Below are positions 5,383 through 44,225 of a DNA stretch of 58,155 nucleotides, piece after piece. Position numbers and translations under genes: made by a program. The notes under the pieces are model-generated. The model ran no database searches and was not told the DNA's origin. It saw only the letters and a program-made list of their open reading frames with translations. How positions within the stretch are numbered: position 1 is the first letter of the stretch; the number at the start of each line of letters is the position of its first letter. Origin of the DNA: Melioribacter roseus (GTDB lineage Bacteria; Bacteroidota; Ignavibacteria; Ignavibacteriales; Melioribacteraceae); NCBI GenBank assembly GCA_020724265.1, contig DYHH01000025.1, forward strand, positions 1-58,155, written 5' to 3'.

Positions 5383-7038
5383 CTATTCGAGGCTAATTAT
5401 GTTGCTGATCTTATTGCTGCTTTCGTTATAACCATCGTTAATTTTGTTCATCGCATCTTTAAAAACGCCGAGTGAGCGCTGGCTTAACAGATCAATTTTT
5501 ATTAAACCGTAATCTTCAAGTGGATACATATCCGGCTGTGTAATTATTAATCCGAGTCCTTTATTCTTTGCAAACTCAAGCGCAAGATAATTTGTGATTG
5601 GCTCCTTTGTGATTACAATTCCCGACGGATGAATACTTAAATGACGAGGAAAGCGGGATAACTGTGATGCAATTTTTATAATTGTTCTCCACGGTTCATT
5701 ATTAAAATTTAGTGACTTTGCTTCGGGGAATTTTTCCGAAAGTTTATCCAGATTCTTTGCGCTCGTCCAAGGAATGAATTTACTGTATGTGGAAATTTCC
5801 GATTGAGAAATACCGAAGACTTTTGCAACTTCACGGAACGCAGACCGCGCACGGAACGTTACCATTGTGGAAATCATTGCAACGTGATTATAACCGTATT
5901 TATCAAAAACGTATTTTATGATATCATCGCGCTCTCTCCAAGAAAAATCAAGATCAACATCAGGCGGTGAAAATCTTCCTCGATTTAAGAATCGTTCAAA
6001 ATAAAAATTGTGCTTAATAGGATCGACTTCGGTAAAACCAAGGCAATAAGATACCAGGCTATTTGCTGCGGAACCTCTTCCGATGTGCAGCATACCCCGG
6101 CGCTTTGCTTCGCGTATAATATCCCAAACAATCAAAAAATAATCGCAGAACCCCATTTCATCAATTACCTCCAACTCATATTGAAGTCGCTTAACAGCTT
6201 GTTCTGTTATCGGTTTGAATCTTTCTTCCAAACCGCGAAAAGTAATTTTCCACAAAAAGGAAAAAGCAGTTTCACCCGGAGGGAGTGGAAAAATTGGAAA
6301 TTTATGTTTACCGAATTCCAAATCAACATTACAATTTTGTGCAATCCGTTCGGCATTCCACAGAGCTTCCGGTAATGCACGCCAATCTTGTTTTAGTTCA
6401 TCATTAGTCTTTAAGTAAAACTCTTCGTCAACTAATTCTTCTTCGGCAAGGTTATCAATTGTTGTATTAAGGTGTATTGCCGTGACGGTTTTATGCAGAA
6501 TAAAATCTTCTTTCTTTAAGAAATACGCCGGATGTGTTGCTACTATCTGTAATTTTTTAGCTTTTGCAAAATCGTATAGCTCGCGGGTTTTTCTTTTTTG
6601 TTTTTCGGTGATGACCAACTCAACAAACAAGTTCGAAAGTAATTCCGGGGCAAGTTCAATTTTTTTAAGTAACTCCAGCGATGATGTAATTATAAACAGG
6701 TTATCACTCGGCTCATTAAATAAATCAATTAAATGAAAATCATCTTTTAGTTTACGGGTCGTGATTATCTTACAAAGATGTGAATAGCCGGCATTATTTT
6801 TTGCAAGAAAAAGGGCAGATAAATTTTCGTCATGAGGATCATCAATCAAAGCACCGAGTATTGGTTTGATATTCTCATCCTGCGCAAGTTTTGCAAATTG
6901 AATGAGTCCGTACATTCCGTTTGTATCGGTTAATACGGCATAGCGGTTCCCGTCTTTCTTTGCAAAAGAAATAAGCTCTTCAATGGGAATTGTTCCTTGA
7001 AGCAATGAATAATTTGAATGTGTGTGAAGTGTTATCAT
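5383..7038 (-). CDS. DnaE2-type DNA polymerase III alpha subunit, N-terminal half of a split gene
   Basis: The 551 residues begin with a PHP domain (MITLHTHSNYSLLQG, TDTNGMYGL) and continue into the C-family polymerase palm: GRGSAANSLVSY, PDVDLDF with catalytic D362 and D364, and KIDLLSQRSLGVFKD with the third aspartate D516. The frame then ends abruptly after about 35 more residues with no fingers, beta-clamp-binding or OB domain. Those domains are encoded by the plus-strand gene at 9861-11555. Together the halves total about 1115 residues, close to the 1000-1080 of a full DnaE2/ImuC. No intein motif is present at the broken end. In DnaE2 systems this translesion polymerase works with a Y-family partner, and dinB is present between the halves. 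It may be inactive, or the halves may associate. Confidence 0.85.
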   Translation of the reverse strand: MITLHTHSNYSLLQGTIPIEELISFAKKDGNRYAVLTDTNGMYGLIQFAKLAQDENIKPILGALIDDPHDENLSALFLAKNNAGYSHLCKIITTRKLKDDFHLIDLFNEPSDNLFIITSSLELLKKIELAPELLSNLFVELVITEKQKRKTRELYDFAKAKKLQIVATHPAYFLKKEDFILHKTVTAIHLNTTIDNLAEEELVDEEFYLKTNDELKQDWRALPEALWNAERIAQNCNVDLEFGKHKFPIFPLPPGETAFSFLWKITFRGLEERFKPITEQAVKRLQYELEVIDEMGFCDYFLIVWDIIREAKRRGMLHIGRGSAANSLVSYCLGFTEVDPIKHNFYFERFLNRGRFSPPDVDLDFSWRERDDIIKYVFDKYGYNHVAMISTMVTFRARSAFREVAKVFGISQSEISTYSKFIPWTSAKNLDKLSEKFPEAKSLNFNNEPWRTIIKIASQLSRFPRHLSIHPSGIVITKEPITNYLALEFAKNKGLGLIITQPDMYPLEDYGLIKIDLLSQRSLGVFKDAMNKINDGYNESSNKISNIISLE

Positions 7039-7136: not shown

Positions 7137-7385
7137 ATGCCGTCAATTAAAACCAAAAAAGAACGACTTAGCCTTTTTGTTGATCGTGATTTGTCCGAAA
7201 GAGTAGAGAAAATCTCCAAACTGACAAATCAAACAATAAGCGAATTAACGCGCAAAGCTCTGCAAGTATATATCGAGCAGATTGAAAAAGAAAAAACCGA
7301 ACAGGAATTAACGGACGGTTACAAAGCCAATTACGATTATTATTCTAAATCTCAAGAAGAGTGGAATTATGCAGATAAAGAGTAA
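7137..7385 (+). CDS. Ribbon-helix-helix antitoxin (MazE/CopG type)
   Basis: From the ATG at 7137 (MPSIKTKKERLSLFVDRD) this encodes 82 residues. The N-terminal part is a ribbon-helix-helix DNA-binding domain (beta strand LSLFVDRDL, helices ERVEKISKLT and SELTRKALQVYIE). The acidic, aromatic tail (YYSKSQEEWNYADKE) is the type that MazE antitoxins insert into their toxin. In-frame ATGs at 7119 and 7125 and a TTG at 7077 are possible, but 7137 has a GGA ribosome-binding site and the conserved family N-terminus. It overlaps the toxin gene by 17 bases, which is typical of a co-translated pair. Confidence 0.85.
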   Translation: MPSIKTKKERLSLFVDRDLSERVEKISKLTNQTISELTRKALQVYIEQIEKEKTEQELTDGYKANYDYYSKSQEEWNYADKE

Positions 7386-7749
7386 GACCGGCATTGTTAC
7401 CCCACTTCTTCGCGGAGATGTTTATTTAGTTAATCTTGACCCAATCGTTGGCAAAGAAATTGGCAAAGCAAGACCGGCAGTAATTATTCAGAACGATATC
7501 GGGAATAAATTCAGTCCGGTTACAATAATTGCTCCGATCTCAAGCATTAAAGAAATAACCAAACCGCTTCCGATTATGATTCGTCTTCAAAAAGGTGAAG
7601 GCGGATTAAAAGAAGAAAGTTTTGTTGATTGCGGACAAATTCGCACAATCGATAAAAAACAAAGACTAATTACAAAATTCGGAAGTTTAGATAAAGAAAA
7701 AATGCTTGATGTTGATAAAGCGATTAAAATTTCTCTAGCGCTTCGCTAA
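7369..7749 (+). CDS. MazF/PemK-type endoribonuclease toxin
   Basis: A 126-residue protein with the MazF/PemK core: RGDVYLVNLDPIVGKEIGKARPAVIIQND, then the VTIIAPISS strand and the FVDCGQIRTIDKK region. Members cleave mRNA at short sequences and are neutralised by the upstream antitoxin. The N-terminal residues MQIKSKTGIVTPLL extend slightly beyond the usual start. The gene overlaps the antitoxin and is followed by a hairpin terminator. The pair sits between the two halves of the split polymerase gene. Confidence 0.9.
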   Translation: MQIKSKTGIVTPLLRGDVYLVNLDPIVGKEIGKARPAVIIQNDIGNKFSPVTIIAPISSIKEITKPLPIMIRLQKGEGGLKEESFVDCGQIRTIDKKQRLITKFGSLDKEKMLDVDKAIKISLALR

Positions 7750-7947: not shown

Positions 7948-9096
7948 TTACTCATTCCTCCCCATATGAATTACATCAAAACCAAACTTGTCGCGGATTT
8001 TCATTACGGCTCTCAGCATCCTTTTGCGGATTGTTTCTTCGTCTTCAAAAAGTAATTCTTGTTCGGTAAAGTGTTCAAGTTTGCTTAAGTGAATTCCGAT
8101 AAGCCGTATACCTACCCTTCGTGTGTATGCTTTACGAAAAAGATCAACCGCAACATTGTAAACTGTTTTATCATCATCAGTAGCGGGCAGCGACTTTGAG
8201 CGCGTCCATGTTACAAAATCAGAGTAACGAAGTTTTATTGACACGGTTGAGGTCTGCCAATTTTCATTTCGCAGTAATTGACAGGCTTCCTCAACAAGTT
8301 CAAAAAGAATAGATTCGATTTTATCCTTGTTAACAAGATCTTCCCCGAAAGTTGTTTCTTTAGAAATACTTTTTCGTTCGTGCTCGGTTGAAAAATGTGT
8401 GCTTCCTTCACCGTTGGCTTTCTCCCAAAGTGCTATGCCGTACTTTCCGAGTAAAGTAGTTAGATAGTCTTGAGATGCGTTGGCAATATCGCCGACTGTC
8501 TTAAACCCGCGTGCGCGTAAAATCGGAAAGGTTGCTTTTCCTATGCCGGGTACTTTTTCAATAGGCAGCGGAGCTAAAAATTCTTTTTCCTTTCCGTGAG
8601 GTACGAATGTAATACCATTCGGTTTCTTATAATCAGAGGCTATTTTTGAAACCGATTTATTGCTTGAAATTCCGATTGAACATGGGAGATGAAGTTCACG
8701 CCCAATTTCGGTTTGTATTTTTTTTGCAAATTCTTCCGGATGACCGTACATTTTTTCACAGCCGGTAAAATCGAGATAAAATTCATCTATTGAAGCACGT
8801 TCAACAGTTGGAAAATATTTTTCTAAAATTCGCTTAACGGCTTTCGAATAGCGGCTGTATTCTTTTCCGTGCCCGCGAATGTATTCTCCGTGGGGACATA
8901 ATCGGTAAGCAGTTTTAATCGGCATAGCCGAATGGAGCCCGTAAGCACGCGCTTCGTAACTGCATGCGGCAACAACTCCTCGTCCGCTTTTCGGATTACC
9001 GCCAACAATTACCGGCTTACCTTCAAGCAGAGGGTTTAAGTTTCGTTCAACCGAAACAAAAAATGCATCCATATCTAAGTGGAATATTGTTTTCAT
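7948..9096 (-). CDS. dinB: DNA polymerase IV (Y-family translesion polymerase)
   Basis: The 382 residues match DinB over the whole length. The palm has HLDMDAFF (D8, D10) and SIDEFYLDF (D104, E105), the metal-binding acids. The fingers carry ACSYEARAYGL, the thumb has a helix-hairpin-helix VPGIGKATF, and the little finger domain follows. Near the end QELLFED resembles the QLxLF beta-clamp-binding peptide. DinB copies past lesions and extends mismatched ends. The gene points in the same direction as the polymerase N-terminal half that follows it after the toxin-antitoxin pair. If the inversion inferred for this locus is undone, dinB would precede the complete dnaE2-type gene on one strand. Confidence 0.95.
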   Translation of the reverse strand: MKTIFHLDMDAFFVSVERNLNPLLEGKPVIVGGNPKSGRGVVAACSYEARAYGLHSAMPIKTAYRLCPHGEYIRGHGKEYSRYSKAVKRILEKYFPTVERASIDEFYLDFTGCEKMYGHPEEFAKKIQTEIGRELHLPCSIGISSNKSVSKIASDYKKPNGITFVPHGKEKEFLAPLPIEKVPGIGKATFPILRARGFKTVGDIANASQDYLTTLLGKYGIALWEKANGEGSTHFSTEHERKSISKETTFGEDLVNKDKIESILFELVEEACQLLRNENWQTSTVSIKLRYSDFVTWTRSKSLPATDDDKTVYNVAVDLFRKAYTRRVGIRLIGIHLSKLEHFTEQELLFEDEETIRKRMLRAVMKIRDKFGFDVIHMGRNE

Positions 9097-9860: not shown

Positions 9861-11555
9861 ATGTTCACTACTAATATTAACAAATTGCCCGAAAGTAGCA
9901 AGTCAGTTTTGCTGAATATGTCGGATTATAAACTGTCGAACTCAAGTAATTTCGAAAGAATTTTCAACCGTATTCCGCAAGTCATTCAGCAAACCGGCTT
10001 CAACATGTTCGATTACGACAAGGTTTTTACCGATAAGGCGACAAATGATTTAATACGAAGCGGGAAAACTATCGGGTGTTTTTATATAGAAAGCCCAGGA
10101 ATGCGTTCGCTTCTCAGACGGCTTGACTGCGATAATTTTGAAATGCTCACGGCGGCAAGTTCGGTTATTCGTCCCGGTGTTGCCGAAAGCGGAATGATGA
10201 AAGAATTTATCGAGCGGCATAAAAATCCCGCAAGAAGAAAATATCTTATTCCCGAAATGGAAAAATATCTAGGTGAAACCTACGGTGTTATGATCTATCA
10301 AGAAGATGTGATTAAGATTGCTCATCATGTTGTCGGGCTTTCGTTAGAAGAAGCCGATTTACTCCGCCGTGCAATGAGCGGCAAGATGCGTTCGCACAAA
10401 GCAATGCAGTTAATAGTAGATAAATTTTTTGCTTGCTGCAAAGAGAAAGGTTATCCCGAAAAAGTTGCAAAGGAACTTTGGCATCAGATTGAATCCTTTG
10501 CCGGGTACGCATTCTGTAAAGCGCACAGTGCTTCGTTTGCCGTGCTCTCTTATCAAGTTGCTTACTTAAAAACATATTATCCTGCCGAGTTTATGGCAGG
10601 TGTACTTAGCAACGGCGGCGGGTATTATTCATCGGCGGTTTACATAAGCGAATGCAAACGCCTTGGTTTAAAGGTTCTTCTTCCGTGCATAAACGAAAGC
10701 GGGTATGATTATACGGGAAAAGATAAAGAAGTAAGAATCGGGTTTGTTGCCGTTAAAAATTTCGAGCAAAATTATGCCGATAAAATTTTAGAAGAAAGAA
10801 ACAAAAACGGAAAGTTCACATCGCTTGCAAATTTTCTTTCGCGTGTTCATCTCGGTTACGAAAGTGCTGAACGCTTAATAAGATGCGGGGCTATGGATTG
10901 TTTTAAACAAACACGCCCTACACTCCTCCGTCTGCTTGATATTTATTTCTACAACAAGAAACTCTTAGAAGATGAGAATATAAATCTTTTTGCAAACACA
11001 ACAAGCAAACTTGAAAAAGAAGTTGCTACCGATAGAGAATTCGGAATAGAGGAGACTTGTTACAATGAATATGAAATATTCGGCTATATGGTTTCGTATC
11101 ACCCGTTGGATTTCTTTGAAGAAGTAAACAGAGAATATATTGTTAAAGCTGCGGATATGAATAAGTATCACAACAAAAAAATTAAAATGATCGGATGGTA
11201 TATGGCATCGAAGCGGGTGGTGACAAGCAAAGGCGGGATAATGAAATTCCTTTCACTTGAAGATAAAACCGAAACATTCGAAGCAGTTATTTTTCCCGAA
11301 GCATACCGGAAGTATGCGGAACTTACAATGTCGATGGGTCCGTATTTGGTTGAAGGCAAAGTCGATGCAGAAAGCGGTAATAATATTATTGTCGAAAGAA
11401 TGGAGGTTCTCTCGGCAGTTAAAGCTCAATCGATAACACAAAAAGACAGGACAAGTAAAGATTTCTTCGGTGATGCGGAAAAGGATCTTACAATTGACGA
11501 AGTATACCTTGTAAATTCTTTAGGAAAGGAAAAGTTGAAGAGAGCTTATTTGTGA
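9861..11555 (+). CDS. DnaE2-type DNA polymerase III alpha subunit, C-terminal half of a split gene
   Basis: The 564 residues begin with about 45 residues of no family similarity and then enter DnaE at KVFTDKATNDLIRSGKTIG, followed by CFYIESPGMRSLL and the fingers (YQEDVIKIAHHVVGLSLEEA, FAGYAFCKAHSASFAVLSYQ). The helix-hairpin-helix/clamp-binding region and an OB fold (IKMIGWYMASKRVVTSKGG, FLSLEDKTETFEAVIF) complete the protein. It lacks the PHP domain and all three catalytic aspartates, which are in the minus-strand gene at 5383-7038. The two reading frames meet in the same stretch of the protein, between the third palm aspartate and the fingers. Alone it cannot polymerise. It could pair with the other half or be a remnant. 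Confidence 0.85.
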   Translation: MFTTNINKLPESSKSVLLNMSDYKLSNSSNFERIFNRIPQVIQQTGFNMFDYDKVFTDKATNDLIRSGKTIGCFYIESPGMRSLLRRLDCDNFEMLTAASSVIRPGVAESGMMKEFIERHKNPARRKYLIPEMEKYLGETYGVMIYQEDVIKIAHHVVGLSLEEADLLRRAMSGKMRSHKAMQLIVDKFFACCKEKGYPEKVAKELWHQIESFAGYAFCKAHSASFAVLSYQVAYLKTYYPAEFMAGVLSNGGGYYSSAVYISECKRLGLKVLLPCINESGYDYTGKDKEVRIGFVAVKNFEQNYADKILEERNKNGKFTSLANFLSRVHLGYESAERLIRCGAMDCFKQTRPTLLRLLDIYFYNKKLLEDENINLFANTTSKLEKEVATDREFGIEETCYNEYEIFGYMVSYHPLDFFEEVNREYIVKAADMNKYHNKKIKMIGWYMASKRVVTSKGGIMKFLSLEDKTETFEAVIFPEAYRKYAELTMSMGPYLVEGKVDAESGNNIIVERMEVLSAVKAQSITQKDRTSKDFFGDAEKDLTIDEVYLVNSLGKEKLKRAYL

Positions 11556-31589: not shown

Positions 31590-32372
31590 ATGGATAAATC
31601 AAAACAAGAACAAATCTTTTTTGAAATTCACACCGACCTACCACGTGAAGGTCCCGGTAATTTTAAATCAACTAAAGCAGCTTTTTCATTTTTAACCGAA
31701 TTGCCTGAGAAACCGGTTATTCTTGATATCGGTTGCGGACCCGGTAAACAAACATTTGATCTTGCTAAAATCTCAAATAGCATAATTACGGCTATAGATA
31801 ACCATCATGCTTATATTGATCGGTTAAATAAAAAAGCTTCCGATCAAAATATATCATCAAGAGTTACCGGTAAGGTTGGAGATATGAACAATCTTCAATT
31901 CGAAGAACATTCATTTGATATTATATGGGCTGAGGGTTCAATTTATTTAATGGGAATCGGTAAAGCATTATCACTTTGGAAAAAATTTCTTAAACCAAAC
32001 GGCTATATAGTTTTTAGCGAATTATGCTGGTTTAAAGATGATCGTCCGGATGAAATCGAAAATTATTGGCTTTCGAATTACGGAGAAATTAAAACAATCG
32101 ATTCCATAGTAAAGTTTTTATCTAATACCGATTATAAATTTATAGGCAGTTATGTATTACCCGATAACGCTTGGTGGGATGATTATTATACGCCGCTCAC
32201 AAACAGAATCAATGATCTGAAGAAAAAATACTCCAACGATCCGGAAGCTACGCAAGTATTGGAAAATGAATCACTGGAAATGGAAATGCATAAAAAGTAT
32301 TCTGCTTATTATGGATATTCGTTTTTTGTGGTAAAGAATATTTTGTATTATCATAATAGTAAATACAAATAA
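31590..32372 (+). CDS. SAM-dependent methyltransferase
   Basis: A 260-residue class I methyltransferase with motif I VILDIGCGPGKQTFDL, acidic residue in ITAIDNHHAYID, and DIIWAEGSIYLMGIGKALSLWKKFLKPNGYIVFSE. The aromatic-rich tail (NAWWDDYYTPL, YYGYSFFVVKN) resembles methyltransferases of the UbiE/small-substrate group. The substrate is unknown. It follows the SDR gene by 31 bases. Confidence 0.82.
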   Translation: MDKSKQEQIFFEIHTDLPREGPGNFKSTKAAFSFLTELPEKPVILDIGCGPGKQTFDLAKISNSIITAIDNHHAYIDRLNKKASDQNISSRVTGKVGDMNNLQFEEHSFDIIWAEGSIYLMGIGKALSLWKKFLKPNGYIVFSELCWFKDDRPDEIENYWLSNYGEIKTIDSIVKFLSNTDYKFIGSYVLPDNAWWDDYYTPLTNRINDLKKKYSNDPEATQVLENESLEMEMHKKYSAYYGYSFFVVKNILYYHNSKYK

Positions 32373-37432: not shown

Positions 37433-38284
37433 TTACTTATTTTGATTCCCAAGTCTATCCGGATTCTTTTGGATTTTTTTATCTTCTGATTTAACCCGGC
37501 GCTCTAATTTTTTTATATCTTCTTCTGCCGGTAAATCTTCGGGTACAATTCCTCGCTCAATTAACAGTTTTCTTACGCTTTTGTTGTTTCTTATGTGTTC
37601 CCAGGCGATTCGGTTACCCTTTTCAATATGCTTATCCTTTACATTAAAGATTGTTATTTCCGTTGCAAAATCTTTTGCTTTAATAGTTATGGTAGGTAGG
37701 AAATCTGCCAATGGTTTGTTTGATTTTACACCCAATCTCTTTTTCATTTGGGAAGTTGAAAAGCCGAACAAGGCTTTATCACCCTGACTGCGAATAAGAC
37801 CAAAATCTTTTTCATTACCGGTGCGTTCGTAAATTAATTCCGAAAGTTCTTTTTCAGATAATGTAAGTTTCTGACGGGCTTGGAGACGTTCCCATTCTTT
37901 AATTCGTTTTTCAACTAACTCAAACTTACGGGTTTGTATTGCAAAGTAATTTTGGGCAAAAGCTATCGGTTCTTTTTGGGGATCGCCGTTTTGAGCAATT
38001 AAATAGCAGGCAAACCGGGTTAGCATCAAATCATCAATTTCACGTCCCGTCCCCGAGCCGATTTTGACCATTTTGTTGATATCAACAAAATGGTCTGTTA
38101 TACTATGCCCGGCTGCTTCGCAGCTTATTTTTGCCTTTGTTAAAACTTTTGTGAAATTTCGCCACTCAGTGTAACCAAGCAGATGCTGTAAATCCCGGGC
38201 AAACCAAAATTCTATGTTGTTTTCCGTTTTGTTTGAATAGGAATCGAAATTTTCTGCGAGCGATTTAATCACTTCTTTTTTCAT
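37433..38284 (-). CDS. dinD: DNA damage-inducible protein D
   Basis: A 283-residue protein with an N-terminal BRO-like domain (EFWFARDLQHLLGYTEWRNFTKVL), DDLMLTRFACYLIAQNGDP, the FAQNYFAIQTRKFE helix and the C-terminal KDFATEITIFNVKD region. These are the conserved parts of DinD, which in Escherichia coli is SOS-induced and inhibits RecA. A lysine-rich tail follows. The gene is convergent with the barrel gene. It adds to the DNA-damage genes in this window, but I found no LexA-box I can vouch for. Confidence 0.85.
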   Translation of the reverse strand: MKKEVIKSLAENFDSYSNKTENNIEFWFARDLQHLLGYTEWRNFTKVLTKAKISCEAAGHSITDHFVDINKMVKIGSGTGREIDDLMLTRFACYLIAQNGDPQKEPIAFAQNYFAIQTRKFELVEKRIKEWERLQARQKLTLSEKELSELIYERTGNEKDFGLIRSQGDKALFGFSTSQMKKRLGVKSNKPLADFLPTITIKAKDFATEITIFNVKDKHIEKGNRIAWEHIRNNKSVRKLLIERGIVPEDLPAEEDIKKLERRVKSEDKKIQKNPDRLGNQNK

Positions 38285-40531: not shown

Positions 40532-40569
40532 AAAAGTATAATTATTTAACTATTAGTTACGTGATTATG

Positions 40570-40591
40570 GGGTTGACATTTACGTCAACCC
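40570..40591. promoter_or_regulatory. Perfect palindrome at the promoter of the XRE-kinase-TPR cassette
   Basis: GGGTTGAC (40570-40577) and GTCAACCC (40584-40591) are exact inverted copies with a 6-base spacer, 15 bases before the XRE start. The palindrome contains TTGACA, and TACTTTTA 20 bases after that TTG gives a fair Bacteroidota-type -33/-7 pair. It could be the autoregulatory operator of the XRE protein. It could equally be the terminator of the peptidase gene, since T-rich DNA follows. Confidence 0.45.
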
Positions 40592-40606
40592 TGTTTACTT
40601 TTATAT

Positions 40607-40891
40607 ATGAAAAATTTCGGTAAAATACTTAAAAGTATACGTTTGGAAAGAGGAATAGGAATCAAGAAATTAGCCTCTGATATTGGTGTTAGCTATACTT
40701 ATATAAGTAAGTTAGAGAATGATAAGTCTATGCCATCATCTGATTTTATTAAGAGAATTGCAGACTATTTTAATTATAATTCTGACAAATTATATGTTTC
40801 AGCAAATAAATTACCTCACGATGTTGAAGAAATAATAAGGGATAACCCCGAAGAAGCTATTAATTACCTCCGTGATATGTTTAGGAGGTAA
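40607..40891 (+). CDS. XRE-family transcriptional regulator
   Basis: A 94-residue protein: residues 4-60 are a Cro/CI helix-turn-helix (ILKSIRLERGIGIKKLASDI, GVSYTYISKLENDKSMPSS), followed by an acidic tail that contains DVEEIIRDNPEEAINYLRD. It would bind DNA as a dimer and, given the palindrome just upstream, probably represses its own operon. The next gene, a Ser/Thr kinase, begins after 6 bases, so regulator and kinase are translated together. Confidence 0.85.
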   Translation: MKNFGKILKSIRLERGIGIKKLASDIGVSYTYISKLENDKSMPSSDFIKRIADYFNYNSDKLYVSANKLPHDVEEIIRDNPEEAINYLRDMFRR

Positions 40892-40897
40892 TTTTTA

Positions 40898-41950
40898 ATG
40901 AGTAAAAATGAAGTTTTTCTGAGAATAATTGAATCACAAAAAATCATTAATAATAGGTTTTATGATATTAGGAGAATAAATCAAGAAGGAGGAAATGGTA
41001 ATTTTTCTTTGGTATTCTTAGCAAAAGATAAGACGCTTAGAAAGAACAAAGATGTTGTGTTGAAATTTTTTAACCCAACAAGAGCATCAGTTCTCGGGGA
41101 TTATAGACAAAAGTGTTTCGAGCGAGAAGCCAAGATACTTTATCGACTAAAAAACCAGCGCAATATCTTGCCGATATTGCAAAAATTGCGAAATCTAGAA
41201 ATCGAATTAGATTATGAACATAACAAAATACCAATACAACTTAATTATTATGTAACACATAAAGCTAAATGTAGTATTGGTGATTATATCTACAGTGAAG
41301 ATTGGAATTTAATCCGCTCGATTCGATACTTTAGAGAAATATGTAAAGCTGTTCAGAGAATTCATACACAGAGGATCTATCATAGGGATTTAAAACCAGA
41401 GAACTTTTTATTGTTTAGTTATGGTTACGTTTGCGCCTGCGACTTTGGCTCAGCATGTGATTATTCAGAAGAAAGAATACCAATACTTAAAGATCAAGAT
41501 TATGATGAAACTGAGATTGGTGATCCAAGTTATTATTCACTTGAGTTAATTTGTAACTTACAACCTTCAGAGGAGTTATATAGGTACTCAGATTTTTTCG
41601 CGTTAGGAGCAATTCTGTTTGAATTATTTACACGAACACGATTAACGCTGATTGCTTTACGGGATCCCAAACTACAAGTCTTAATAAATGTTATCAGAAA
41701 CCAGAAAATTTACAAAAGGCGAGATGTGTTTTTGTCAGTTATAAGTGATGTTGAAAGACAGATTGATTTACCTAAAGTCAGATCCCTAAATGGTGAATTA
41801 ATTAAAAATATTTCCCATAGAGTTGATGATTTGTATATGAGCCTATCTCGTTTGAATTATAAATTTCGGGAAACTGATTTTAGTAAAATTTTCAACAGAA
41901 TAAATGTCATAGAAAAGTTAATTCTTTATGATAAGTTGAGAAACAAATAA
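40898..41950 (+). CDS. Ser/Thr protein kinase (soluble, Hanks-type)
   Basis: A 350-residue protein with all key kinase residues: Gly-loop GGNGNFSLVF (31-40), ATP lysine K56 (VVLKFF), helix-C glutamate E77, catalytic loop HRDLKPEN (D164, N169), metal-binding DFG (D182), and SDFFALGAILFELFT. The activation segment ends GDPSYYSLE instead of the more usual TPxYxAPE. There is no membrane segment or sensory domain, only a 100-residue tail of charged helices. It sits between an XRE regulator and a TPR protein in a tight operon, so its substrate may be one of them. An AGGAGG ribosome-binding site precedes it. Confidence 0.88.
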   Translation: MSKNEVFLRIIESQKIINNRFYDIRRINQEGGNGNFSLVFLAKDKTLRKNKDVVLKFFNPTRASVLGDYRQKCFEREAKILYRLKNQRNILPILQKLRNLEIELDYEHNKIPIQLNYYVTHKAKCSIGDYIYSEDWNLIRSIRYFREICKAVQRIHTQRIYHRDLKPENFLLFSYGYVCACDFGSACDYSEERIPILKDQDYDETEIGDPSYYSLELICNLQPSEELYRYSDFFALGAILFELFTRTRLTLIALRDPKLQVLINVIRNQKIYKRRDVFLSVISDVERQIDLPKVRSLNGELIKNISHRVDDLYMSLSRLNYKFRETDFSKIFNRINVIEKLILYDKLRNK

Positions 41951-41962
41951 AAAGGTTATGTA

Positions 41963-43756
41963 ATGCAGACACAATTAGCAGATAAATCAATTGAAGAAAA
42001 ATTACTTTTAGCAGATGAAGAAGTATACACAACATTATTCTCGAAAAATCCATTTTATAAAAATTTGGATATAAATTTTAAGGAGAGTACTTTTCTAAAA
42101 AAATCCATTGGTAAGATTTATACTACCGAAGAAATATCCTCTTTAGAAAAAGGAAACTTATCTATAGAATCTAAAAATATTAATAAGAGACAGATTTATT
42201 ATTGTCTTAGAGATGTTAAGAAAAATCCCCAAAATCCTTTTTTATTGAACAATCTTGGACTAGCCTTCATTTCAGCAAGAGAATATAAGAAAGCTCTGAA
42301 ATGTTTTAATGAGGCAATATTATACGACAGTACGTTTATAAGTGCAAAATTAAACATCGCTTATATTTATGTACTATTAAAGGAATATGCAGAAGCTAAG
42401 AAAATATATACTGATTTGCTTAATAGTGAACCAGGTAATAAAGCCATTAAAATCAACTTAGCCAATATTAGTTTAATTGAAAGGGATTTAGATAAAGCAA
42501 AAAAATTATTTTCAGAAATATGGACTAAAGAGAAAAAGAATACTGATGCTGGACATAAACTTTCTATAATATATATCCTAAATAATAATGGAGAAAAGGC
42601 AATATCTACCTTAAGAGACTGTTTGCGAATTGAAACAAACAATCCGTTTCTATTTAATACATTAGGTCTAGCATTTCTAGTCTCAGGGCTGCCGAATAAA
42701 GCACTTAATGCTTTGTTTACAGCTACTCGCTTACTACCTAGAAATAATAAACTAGCACTTAATTATATCAATTTATTATTTGATTTAGGTAAAACAGATT
42801 CCGCAATAAAATATGCTGAAAACTATTTAGATAAAGAATATGATAGAAATATTACAGAAATACTTGTTGAAATGTATTTAAAGAAGGATGAGCCTAAACT
42901 TGCAATTAGGGAGATGAAAAAAATCATTAATGAGTCTAAAGCAGTAGAGACAAATGAGTTTGAAATTGCAAGGCTATATAATAATTTAGGAGTTATCTAT
43001 GATAGAATGTTAGAATATGAGAATGCAGAAAAAATGTATCTGTCTTCATTGAAATTAGTTAACTTCAACAATTCTGTATTTCTAATGAATATTATTGATT
43101 TTTATATTGAAAGAAAACAGAATGTAATTGCTAAGTCCTATATTGATTTATTGGAAAAGTCTTTTCCATCAAAAAATTTGCATCTTTTTTATAAAGGTAT
43201 TTTAGCCAGAAATGAAGAAAAATTTGAAGAAGCAATTAACTGCTTAAACGAGTTTTTACTGGTAAATAAAGAATTTATGTATGCATATATAACACTTAGT
43301 GGAATTTATTGTGAATACTTATCAAATTATGAAAAAGCAATAGATGTTTTACTAAATGCACCAACTGAATTTAAAGAAAGAATCCCTTTTATTAATGATT
43401 TAGCTTATTCTTATTTAATGAATAATAATCTTATGAAAGCTAATGAGGTGCTCAAAAAGGTCAAACCCATTCTAAATGATCCATTCATAACTGCAACAAG
43501 AGGGTTGTTGAAGATAAAAGAGGGGAAAATTGAGGAAGGGAGAAAATTGTATAATGAAGCAAAAAAAATTGCTCGAGGTGATATTTTAAAATATCAAATT
43601 GAACAGAAAAAGCATCTAGAAATTGGTAAGTATTTTATAGGCAAGGATAAACAATTAGCCCTAAAGAATCTTACTCAAACTAAAAAGTTGTCAAAGCATC
43701 AAACAATATTTAGAAAGCAGGCAATAGAACTATTAGAATCTTTACTAATAGAATAA
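41963..43756 (+). CDS. TPR-repeat protein
   Basis: The 597 residues are almost entirely helical repeats of the tetratricopeptide type, for example NPFLLNNLGLAFISAREYKKALKCFNEAIL, SAKLNIAYIYVLLKEYAEAKKIY, and YNNLGVIYDRMLEYENAEKMYLSSL. I see at least a dozen units. No signal peptide, membrane segment or catalytic motif is present, so it is a cytoplasmic scaffold or binding protein. It follows the kinase by 12 bases. The N-terminal 75 residues, before the repeats, are of no recognised family. Confidence 0.85.
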   Translation: MQTQLADKSIEEKLLLADEEVYTTLFSKNPFYKNLDINFKESTFLKKSIGKIYTTEEISSLEKGNLSIESKNINKRQIYYCLRDVKKNPQNPFLLNNLGLAFISAREYKKALKCFNEAILYDSTFISAKLNIAYIYVLLKEYAEAKKIYTDLLNSEPGNKAIKINLANISLIERDLDKAKKLFSEIWTKEKKNTDAGHKLSIIYILNNNGEKAISTLRDCLRIETNNPFLFNTLGLAFLVSGLPNKALNALFTATRLLPRNNKLALNYINLLFDLGKTDSAIKYAENYLDKEYDRNITEILVEMYLKKDEPKLAIREMKKIINESKAVETNEFEIARLYNNLGVIYDRMLEYENAEKMYLSSLKLVNFNNSVFLMNIIDFYIERKQNVIAKSYIDLLEKSFPSKNLHLFYKGILARNEEKFEEAINCLNEFLLVNKEFMYAYITLSGIYCEYLSNYEKAIDVLLNAPTEFKERIPFINDLAYSYLMNNNLMKANEVLKKVKPILNDPFITATRGLLKIKEGKIEEGRKLYNEAKKIARGDILKYQIEQKKHLEIGKYFIGKDKQLALKNLTQTKKLSKHQTIFRKQAIELLESLLIE

Positions 43757-43784
43757 ATTATAACTTGTACTAACAAGTTTATAG

Positions 43785-44225
43785 ATGAATGAAATAGAAA
43801 TCCGTTTGTCAAATACAAATCTAACCAGGTTAAGCAAATATCTGAACTACGAAATAGCGGGTTCAGTTTTATTCCTTTTCTCATTTTTTGCAGGCTTTCT
43901 TATCTTTTTTCTTATAGTGGCTGCATTAGTTTTCACTCCGTTTATGCTTTATGAGTTATACAAAGAAAATAAAAATGGCTGGATAGTTTTCTTTTTTATT
44001 TTGATTGTTGTTCCGTTTATCTTGTCCATAATTTTCCATCTAACGGTTTCATTCGTTTTCCCATGGTATCTAATTGTTTTGGCGCTGTTTTATTTTTATT
44101 GTTTTCTACTTCGTATTGAGGTTAACAACTGGATGCGCGAAAGAAGATCGAAACTGCAGTATATAATTGAAAAACAAAAACGACAAATCGAAACCGAAGT
44201 GTTTATGAGCAAATTCAAAGATTAG
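43785..44225 (+). CDS. Small membrane protein with three to four hydrophobic segments
   Basis: A 146-residue protein: a short polar N-terminus (NEIEIRLSNTNLTRLSKYL), hydrophobic segments around residues 26-55, 65-90 and 92-110, then a basic, helical C-terminus (NWMRERRSKLQYIIEKQKRQ). No family is recognised. It follows the TPR gene by 28 bases and may be the membrane part of that cassette, but could be unrelated. Confidence 0.6.
   Translation: MNEIEIRLSNTNLTRLSKYLNYEIAGSVLFLFSFFAGFLIFFLIVAALVFTPFMLYELYKENKNGWIVFFFILIVVPFILSIIFHLTVSFVFPWYLIVLALFYFYCFLLRIEVNNWMRERRSKLQYIIEKQKRQIETEVFMSKFKD

Follow-up and report, generated by a model that had tools for sequence, protein, structure and literature searches.

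The dcp–msrAB region and its counterparts in the genus

We analysed a window of 58,155 nucleotides from Melioribacter roseus (assembly GCA_020724265.1, contig DYHH01000025.1), in which an XRE-family regulator, a Ser/Thr protein kinase and a tetratricopeptide repeat (TPR) protein are encoded side by side on the forward strand. The regulator gene (40607–40891) codes for 94 aa with a helix-turn-helix domain (HTH_19, 55 bits in Pfam). It is followed after 6 bases by the kinase gene (40898–41950, 350 aa) and, after a further 12 bases, by the TPR gene (41963–43756, 597 aa), whose product shows a run of Pfam TPR models from about residue 75 to residue 540. Upstream, 75 bases separate the XRE gene from an M3 peptidase gene, labelled dcp here. 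Downstream, a gap of 28 bases leads to a fourth gene (43785–44225, + strand), which codes for a small protein with a clear membrane segment by hydropathy, and then to msrAB. An earlier reading of this DNA from sequence alone had listed the same open reading frames (ORFs) and spacings and called the flanking genes ordinary; the family matches found here, including those of the M3 peptidase and of MsrAB, bear this out.

The kinase can be assigned to the Hanks-type Ser/Thr kinases, as it exceeds the Pfam cut-off for Pkinase (84 bits over residues 31–251, cut-off 31.7) and possesses the full catalytic motifs: GGNGNFSLV from residue 31, K56, E77, HRDLKPEN from 162, DFG from 182, SLE at 214–216 in place of APE, and D232. 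The roles of these motifs are textbook knowledge. We could not find any second domain in the kinase with Pfam, nor any hydrophobic segment by hydropathy, in agreement with the sequence-only reading of a catalytically complete kinase devoid of sensory or membrane domains; it is therefore predicted to be soluble, and the TPR protein also has no membrane segment by hydropathy. Structure models of the two proteins were unusable, the TPR model being all-helical with a mean pLDDT of 49 (one sequence) and the kinase model having a mean pLDDT of 35 (two sequences). The genome encodes two more matches to the kinase domain, of 31.5 and 18.6 bits.

Comparison with the three other genomes of the genus (G140, G141 and G142, the first listed as 80% complete) gives near-exact borders to the region. 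When the window is aligned to G142 by blastn, the alignment stops at 40551 and restarts at 43775, which delimits some 3.2 kb of lineage-specific DNA on the + strand (40552–43774, approximate edges) running from dcp to the fourth gene. In all three congeners, a homologue of the fourth gene (70–84% identical) lies directly behind dcp (88–97% identical), and none of the three genes lies in the interval, the matched stretches being 63, 81 and 81 bases apart with the stop codon counted. Elsewhere in these genomes, the best matches of the XRE and TPR proteins remain at generic level (23.8 and 29.5 bits, respectively), and the kinase has no match at E 1e-20. Because the congeners lack the trio at this site and hold only generic matches elsewhere, the three genes were, as judged from these alignments, gained here or lost in the congeners as one block, and gain in this lineage would be the simpler reading.

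The fourth gene, on the other hand, does not belong to the set, because it adjoins dcp in congeners that have no trio in between. A cassette of four genes had been proposed, but the membrane protein gene is a native neighbour of dcp, and the order of dcp, membrane protein gene, msrAB and alr is kept in 3/3 congeners. What stands of the cassette is an XRE–kinase–TPR unit, supported by the spacing, by an AGGAGG that lies upstream of the kinase start within the last XRE codons, and above all by the presence of a single block against three empty sites. The 6-base gap and the AGGAGG in the end of the XRE gene also suggest that translation of the XRE and kinase genes may be coupled. The ends of the block show no terminal repeats and no target duplication that we could recognise, and no Rfam family reaches its gathering score between 40400 and 44400. 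A perfect 7-base inverted repeat (AACTTGT-N4-ACAAGTT, 43762–43779) is found at the right edge, in the gap between the TPR and membrane protein genes. The junction between the membrane protein gene and msrAB is another variable site in the same stretch: G141 and G140 carry an extra insert there, which in G141 holds a calcineurin-like phosphoesterase gene (L064, 5484–6953, − strand), and the gap in G140 is of equal size.

A further inverted repeat lies upstream of the XRE gene, at 40570–40591, and consists of two perfect 8-base arms with 6 bases between them (GGGTTGAC-N6-GTCAACCC); it is a candidate terminator hairpin of dcp and/or a candidate operator of the XRE regulator. Searching the genome with its 20-base core (arms of 7 bases) at 0 mismatches returns this site alone; allowing 2 mismatches adds 8 sites, versus 7 for the reversed pattern used as a control, which singles out no regulon. 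The repeat belongs to a group of 14 distinct perfect 8-base hairpins in the window (22 overlapping entries collapsed), nine of them between ORFs. Between 40480 and 44400 the repeat is the sole terminator-like site on the + strand, but the count alone is not above chance, since both strands together give 2 such sites versus 1.2 expected in shuffles. Folding of the RNA from 40560 to 40604 yields −17.8 kcal/mol (z −4.6), and the corresponding stretches of G142 and G141 give strong hairpins made of different letters (z −6.6 and −6.5). As these two genomes have no XRE gene there, the hairpin is no less likely to be a terminator of dcp than an operator of the XRE protein. A TTGACA followed 17 bases on by TACTTT overlaps the first arm and is a possible promoter, although the scan that gave the terminator-like sites did not list it. 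The palindrome that had been placed at the promoter is thus a perfect inverted repeat with a unique core, but it is at most a putative operator at a promoter, the terminator reading being no weaker.

Relatives of the kinase and TPR protein

We could not find an orthologue of the kinase in any of the other 163 genomes of the order at E <= 1e-20 (1/164, the genome itself), nor in the other 293 genomes of the class at 1e-15 (1/294, again itself; best seven candidates scored per genome). In the phylum sample, where the best five candidates per genome were scored, 11 of 395 genomes match at 1e-12, namely this one and ten others whose matches reach at most 55 bits and are all kinase domains of 766–965-aa frames. 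Three of the 244 genomes in the class of G346 match at 1e-14 (best eight candidates per genome), with at most 57 bits and in frames of 880–967 aa; these samples overlap. Matches to the kinase come from 13 plasmid records and matches to the TPR protein from five, none of them over 80% of the query; the XRE protein has matches in seven, one of them over 80%. One kinase match examined in its context, on an Acinetobacter plasmid, shows a kinase together with a PP2C phosphatase. The sole match in genome contigs, an 817-aa kinase frame from Arenimonas (L020), was read as generic, and that search counts as a weak negative because only two peptide patterns were scanned. A literature search returned nothing that we recognised as an XRE–kinase–TPR trio.

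The kinase and TPR genes are arranged like PDC-M71, a candidate pair in PADLOC (PDC standing for phage defence candidate) composed of a kinase, M71A, and a TPR protein, M71B: the genes adjoin on the same strand, are of similar size and come in the same order. The window kinase matches M71A with 50 bits over residues 18–340 of 350, and the TPR protein matches M71B with 68 bits. However, true members score far higher. M71A was found in one of the 395 phylum genomes, G376, with 461 bits (E limit 1e-30), and M71B in two, with 500 and 517 bits, besides the weak match of the window (E limit 1e-15). Direct BLAST of the window proteins against the PDC-M71 proteins is likewise marginal (30.8 and 29.3 bits). 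By these scores, the window set has the kinase–TPR layout of PDC-M71 and is not a member of it.

In G376 (L021, 2406–13154) the true M71 pair is part of a type I restriction operon with the order hsdM-hsdS-kinase-TPR-hsdR, flanked by the genes with Methylase_S (hsdS) and HSDR_N (hsdR) domains, the HsdM gene coming before. No XRE gene was seen in this operon as listed, unlike in the window set. A 497-aa ORF without Pfam match follows the operon. The M71B of G205 lies close to the end of a contig and was seen without an M71A. A literature search for 'PDC-M71' found no paper, and the main text of the PADLOC web-server paper (2022) does not contain the term 'PDC' (PMC9252829).

The kinase was also compared with further known systems. 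MAD6 of the MADS system is the best PADLOC match of the window kinase (97 bits, residues 32–248), but the NCBIfam equivalog is hit with 62 bits against a cut-off of 460, over the catalytic core only, which places the kinase outside MADS; among the 18 other window proteins, the only mad model listed is mad2, matched in part by a methyltransferase 8 kb away. It is also not the BREX kinase PglW (21 bits, equivalog cut-off 990), and HipBA can be set aside, no HipA model matching the kinase (Pfam at E <= 0.1, NCBIfam at E <= 0.01). The kinase defences PD-T4-6 and Stk2 match it with 73 and 40 bits through the shared kinase domain only, and neither is known to act with a TPR partner. In PknG the TPR domain is fused to the kinase, whereas the window has a separate TPR gene whose product scores 14.9 bits with the PknG_TPR model, below the cut-off of 27. 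Kinases have been reported among defence systems, with a HipA-type kinase system in the DefensePredictor study (PMC13092281) and a eukaryotic-like kinase in an E. coli selection study that also cites a staphylococcal one (PMC9519451); the passages of these papers cited here do not describe an XRE–kinase–TPR trio.

Possible function of the three genes

On the evidence of the comparisons above, the trio is a lineage-specific block with a layout of known type, and its function is a prediction. The reading that we favour, with a probability of roughly 0.4, is that of a horizontally gained kinase–TPR switch under XRE control, perhaps an abortive defence. The XRE protein would keep expression of the operon low, presumably by autoregulation. 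The TPR protein would hold or aim the soluble kinase, either sensing a signal or recruiting substrates, and may represent a separate-gene counterpart of the kinase's own TPR domain in PknG, which couples signal detection to substrate phosphorylation (PMC8546545). Upon a signal, the kinase could phosphorylate the TPR protein and/or targets in the cell, and growth or phage production would be halted. Phage defence appears the most likely purpose of the trio, and of all steps in this mechanism the defence output is the one of which we are least sure. The likeness to a defence module suggested by the sequence-only reading finds indirect support only, in the weak matches to PDC-M71, whose true pair lies in a type I restriction–modification operon, and in a PDC-S13 gene beside dcp (see below), but not in a clear defence island. 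Should the trio indeed serve as a switch in defence or stress, a small mobile cassette would here carry a kinase and its TPR sensor in two separate genes, and the layout of an uncharacterised PADLOC candidate pair would have a second, independent example.

A number of observations weigh against this proposal. Although the GC content of the XRE, kinase and TPR genes, 27–31% versus 30–38% in 13 other window genes, speaks in its favour, one window gene shared with the congeners is as low as the XRE gene (0.298), and the codon usage of the trio is unremarkable (−1.36 to −1.47 versus −1.30 to −1.50). No second XRE–kinase–TPR trio or copy of the kinase turned up in the genomes and collections searched. 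Phage records contain no match to the kinase, and a scan of viral contigs for a few exact peptides, a weak negative, gave no confirmed relative. With respect to PDC-M71, the kinase scores best on the core match to MAD6 and on generic kinase models, while the TPR protein matches PrsT, an unrelated TPR family, with 103 bits against 68 for M71B, and other TPR models score as high as or above M71B. Moreover, the 7.5 kb up to the contig end in G205 contain no restriction gene like those of G376, so that the link between M71 and restriction–modification comes from one genome. We consider it unlikely that the trio is an XRE-controlled immune switch not described before, whose TPR protein, encoded separately, would sense infection and unleash a soluble Hanks kinase, with the window set and PDC-M71 as distant versions of a single kinase–TPR design that moves either alone or within type I restriction–modification operons.

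The dominance of generic kinase and TPR matches, together with the little defence context around the trio, would also fit ordinary stress or metabolic signalling by an accessory kinase and its TPR partner under XRE control, unrelated to phages; PknG provides a precedent for control of metabolism by a TPR-bearing kinase (PMC8546545). We regard this alternative as tentative and somewhat less probable than a defence switch, because presence in only one genome of the order and the block form suit mobile functions better than core ones. A toxin–antitoxin-like addiction module in the manner of HipBA, with the kinase as toxin and the XRE protein, perhaps with the TPR protein, as antitoxin, seems doubtful. 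The small XRE gene does come first with the kinase 6 bases behind, and its product weakly matches antitoxin models (for example couple_hipB, 28 bits with a cut-off of 72), but the kinase is of Hanks type, HipA models are missing from the list of its matches, and HipBA is not known to include a TPR gene. Finally, the XRE gene and an unrelated kinase–TPR pair could have been brought in together as chance neighbours, the XRE protein having no joint function with them. The failure to find a second trio, the XRE start without evident ribosome-binding sequence and the putative status of its operator would agree with this; the coupled translation suggested by the 6-base gap and the AGGAGG in the end of the XRE gene speaks against it. 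We consider it very improbable, and the XRE-controlled switch remains our preferred reading.

Surroundings of the locus

Besides the four genes of interest, PADLOC was run on the 18 other window proteins, of which four matched. On the other side of dcp, a Bro-N gene (37433–38284, − strand) matches PDC-S13 over its full length with 384 bits, and is missing at that place in all three congeners, thus forming a second lineage-specific block beside dcp. In this lineage dcp is therefore flanked by two blocks of possible defence character. Of the three remaining matches, that of a sigma-54 response regulator (up to 309 bits) is to RtcR-type models over the AAA and HTH part, and that of a small Rrf2-like regulator does not exceed 23 bits; the third is the methyltransferase mentioned above (31590–32372; mad2, 57 bits over part of the model). 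Because these three look like shared-domain hits, the window is no clear defence island.

At some distance from the trio, a DNA polymerase III alpha-like protein is encoded in two parts on opposite strands, one with PHP and NTPase domains (5383–7038, −) and one with finger and HHH domains (9861–11555, +). Between them lie a PemK/MazF-type toxin gene (7369–7749) and a DinB-type polymerase gene (7948–9096). This arrangement looks like a gene split by an inversion, or like an assembly join.

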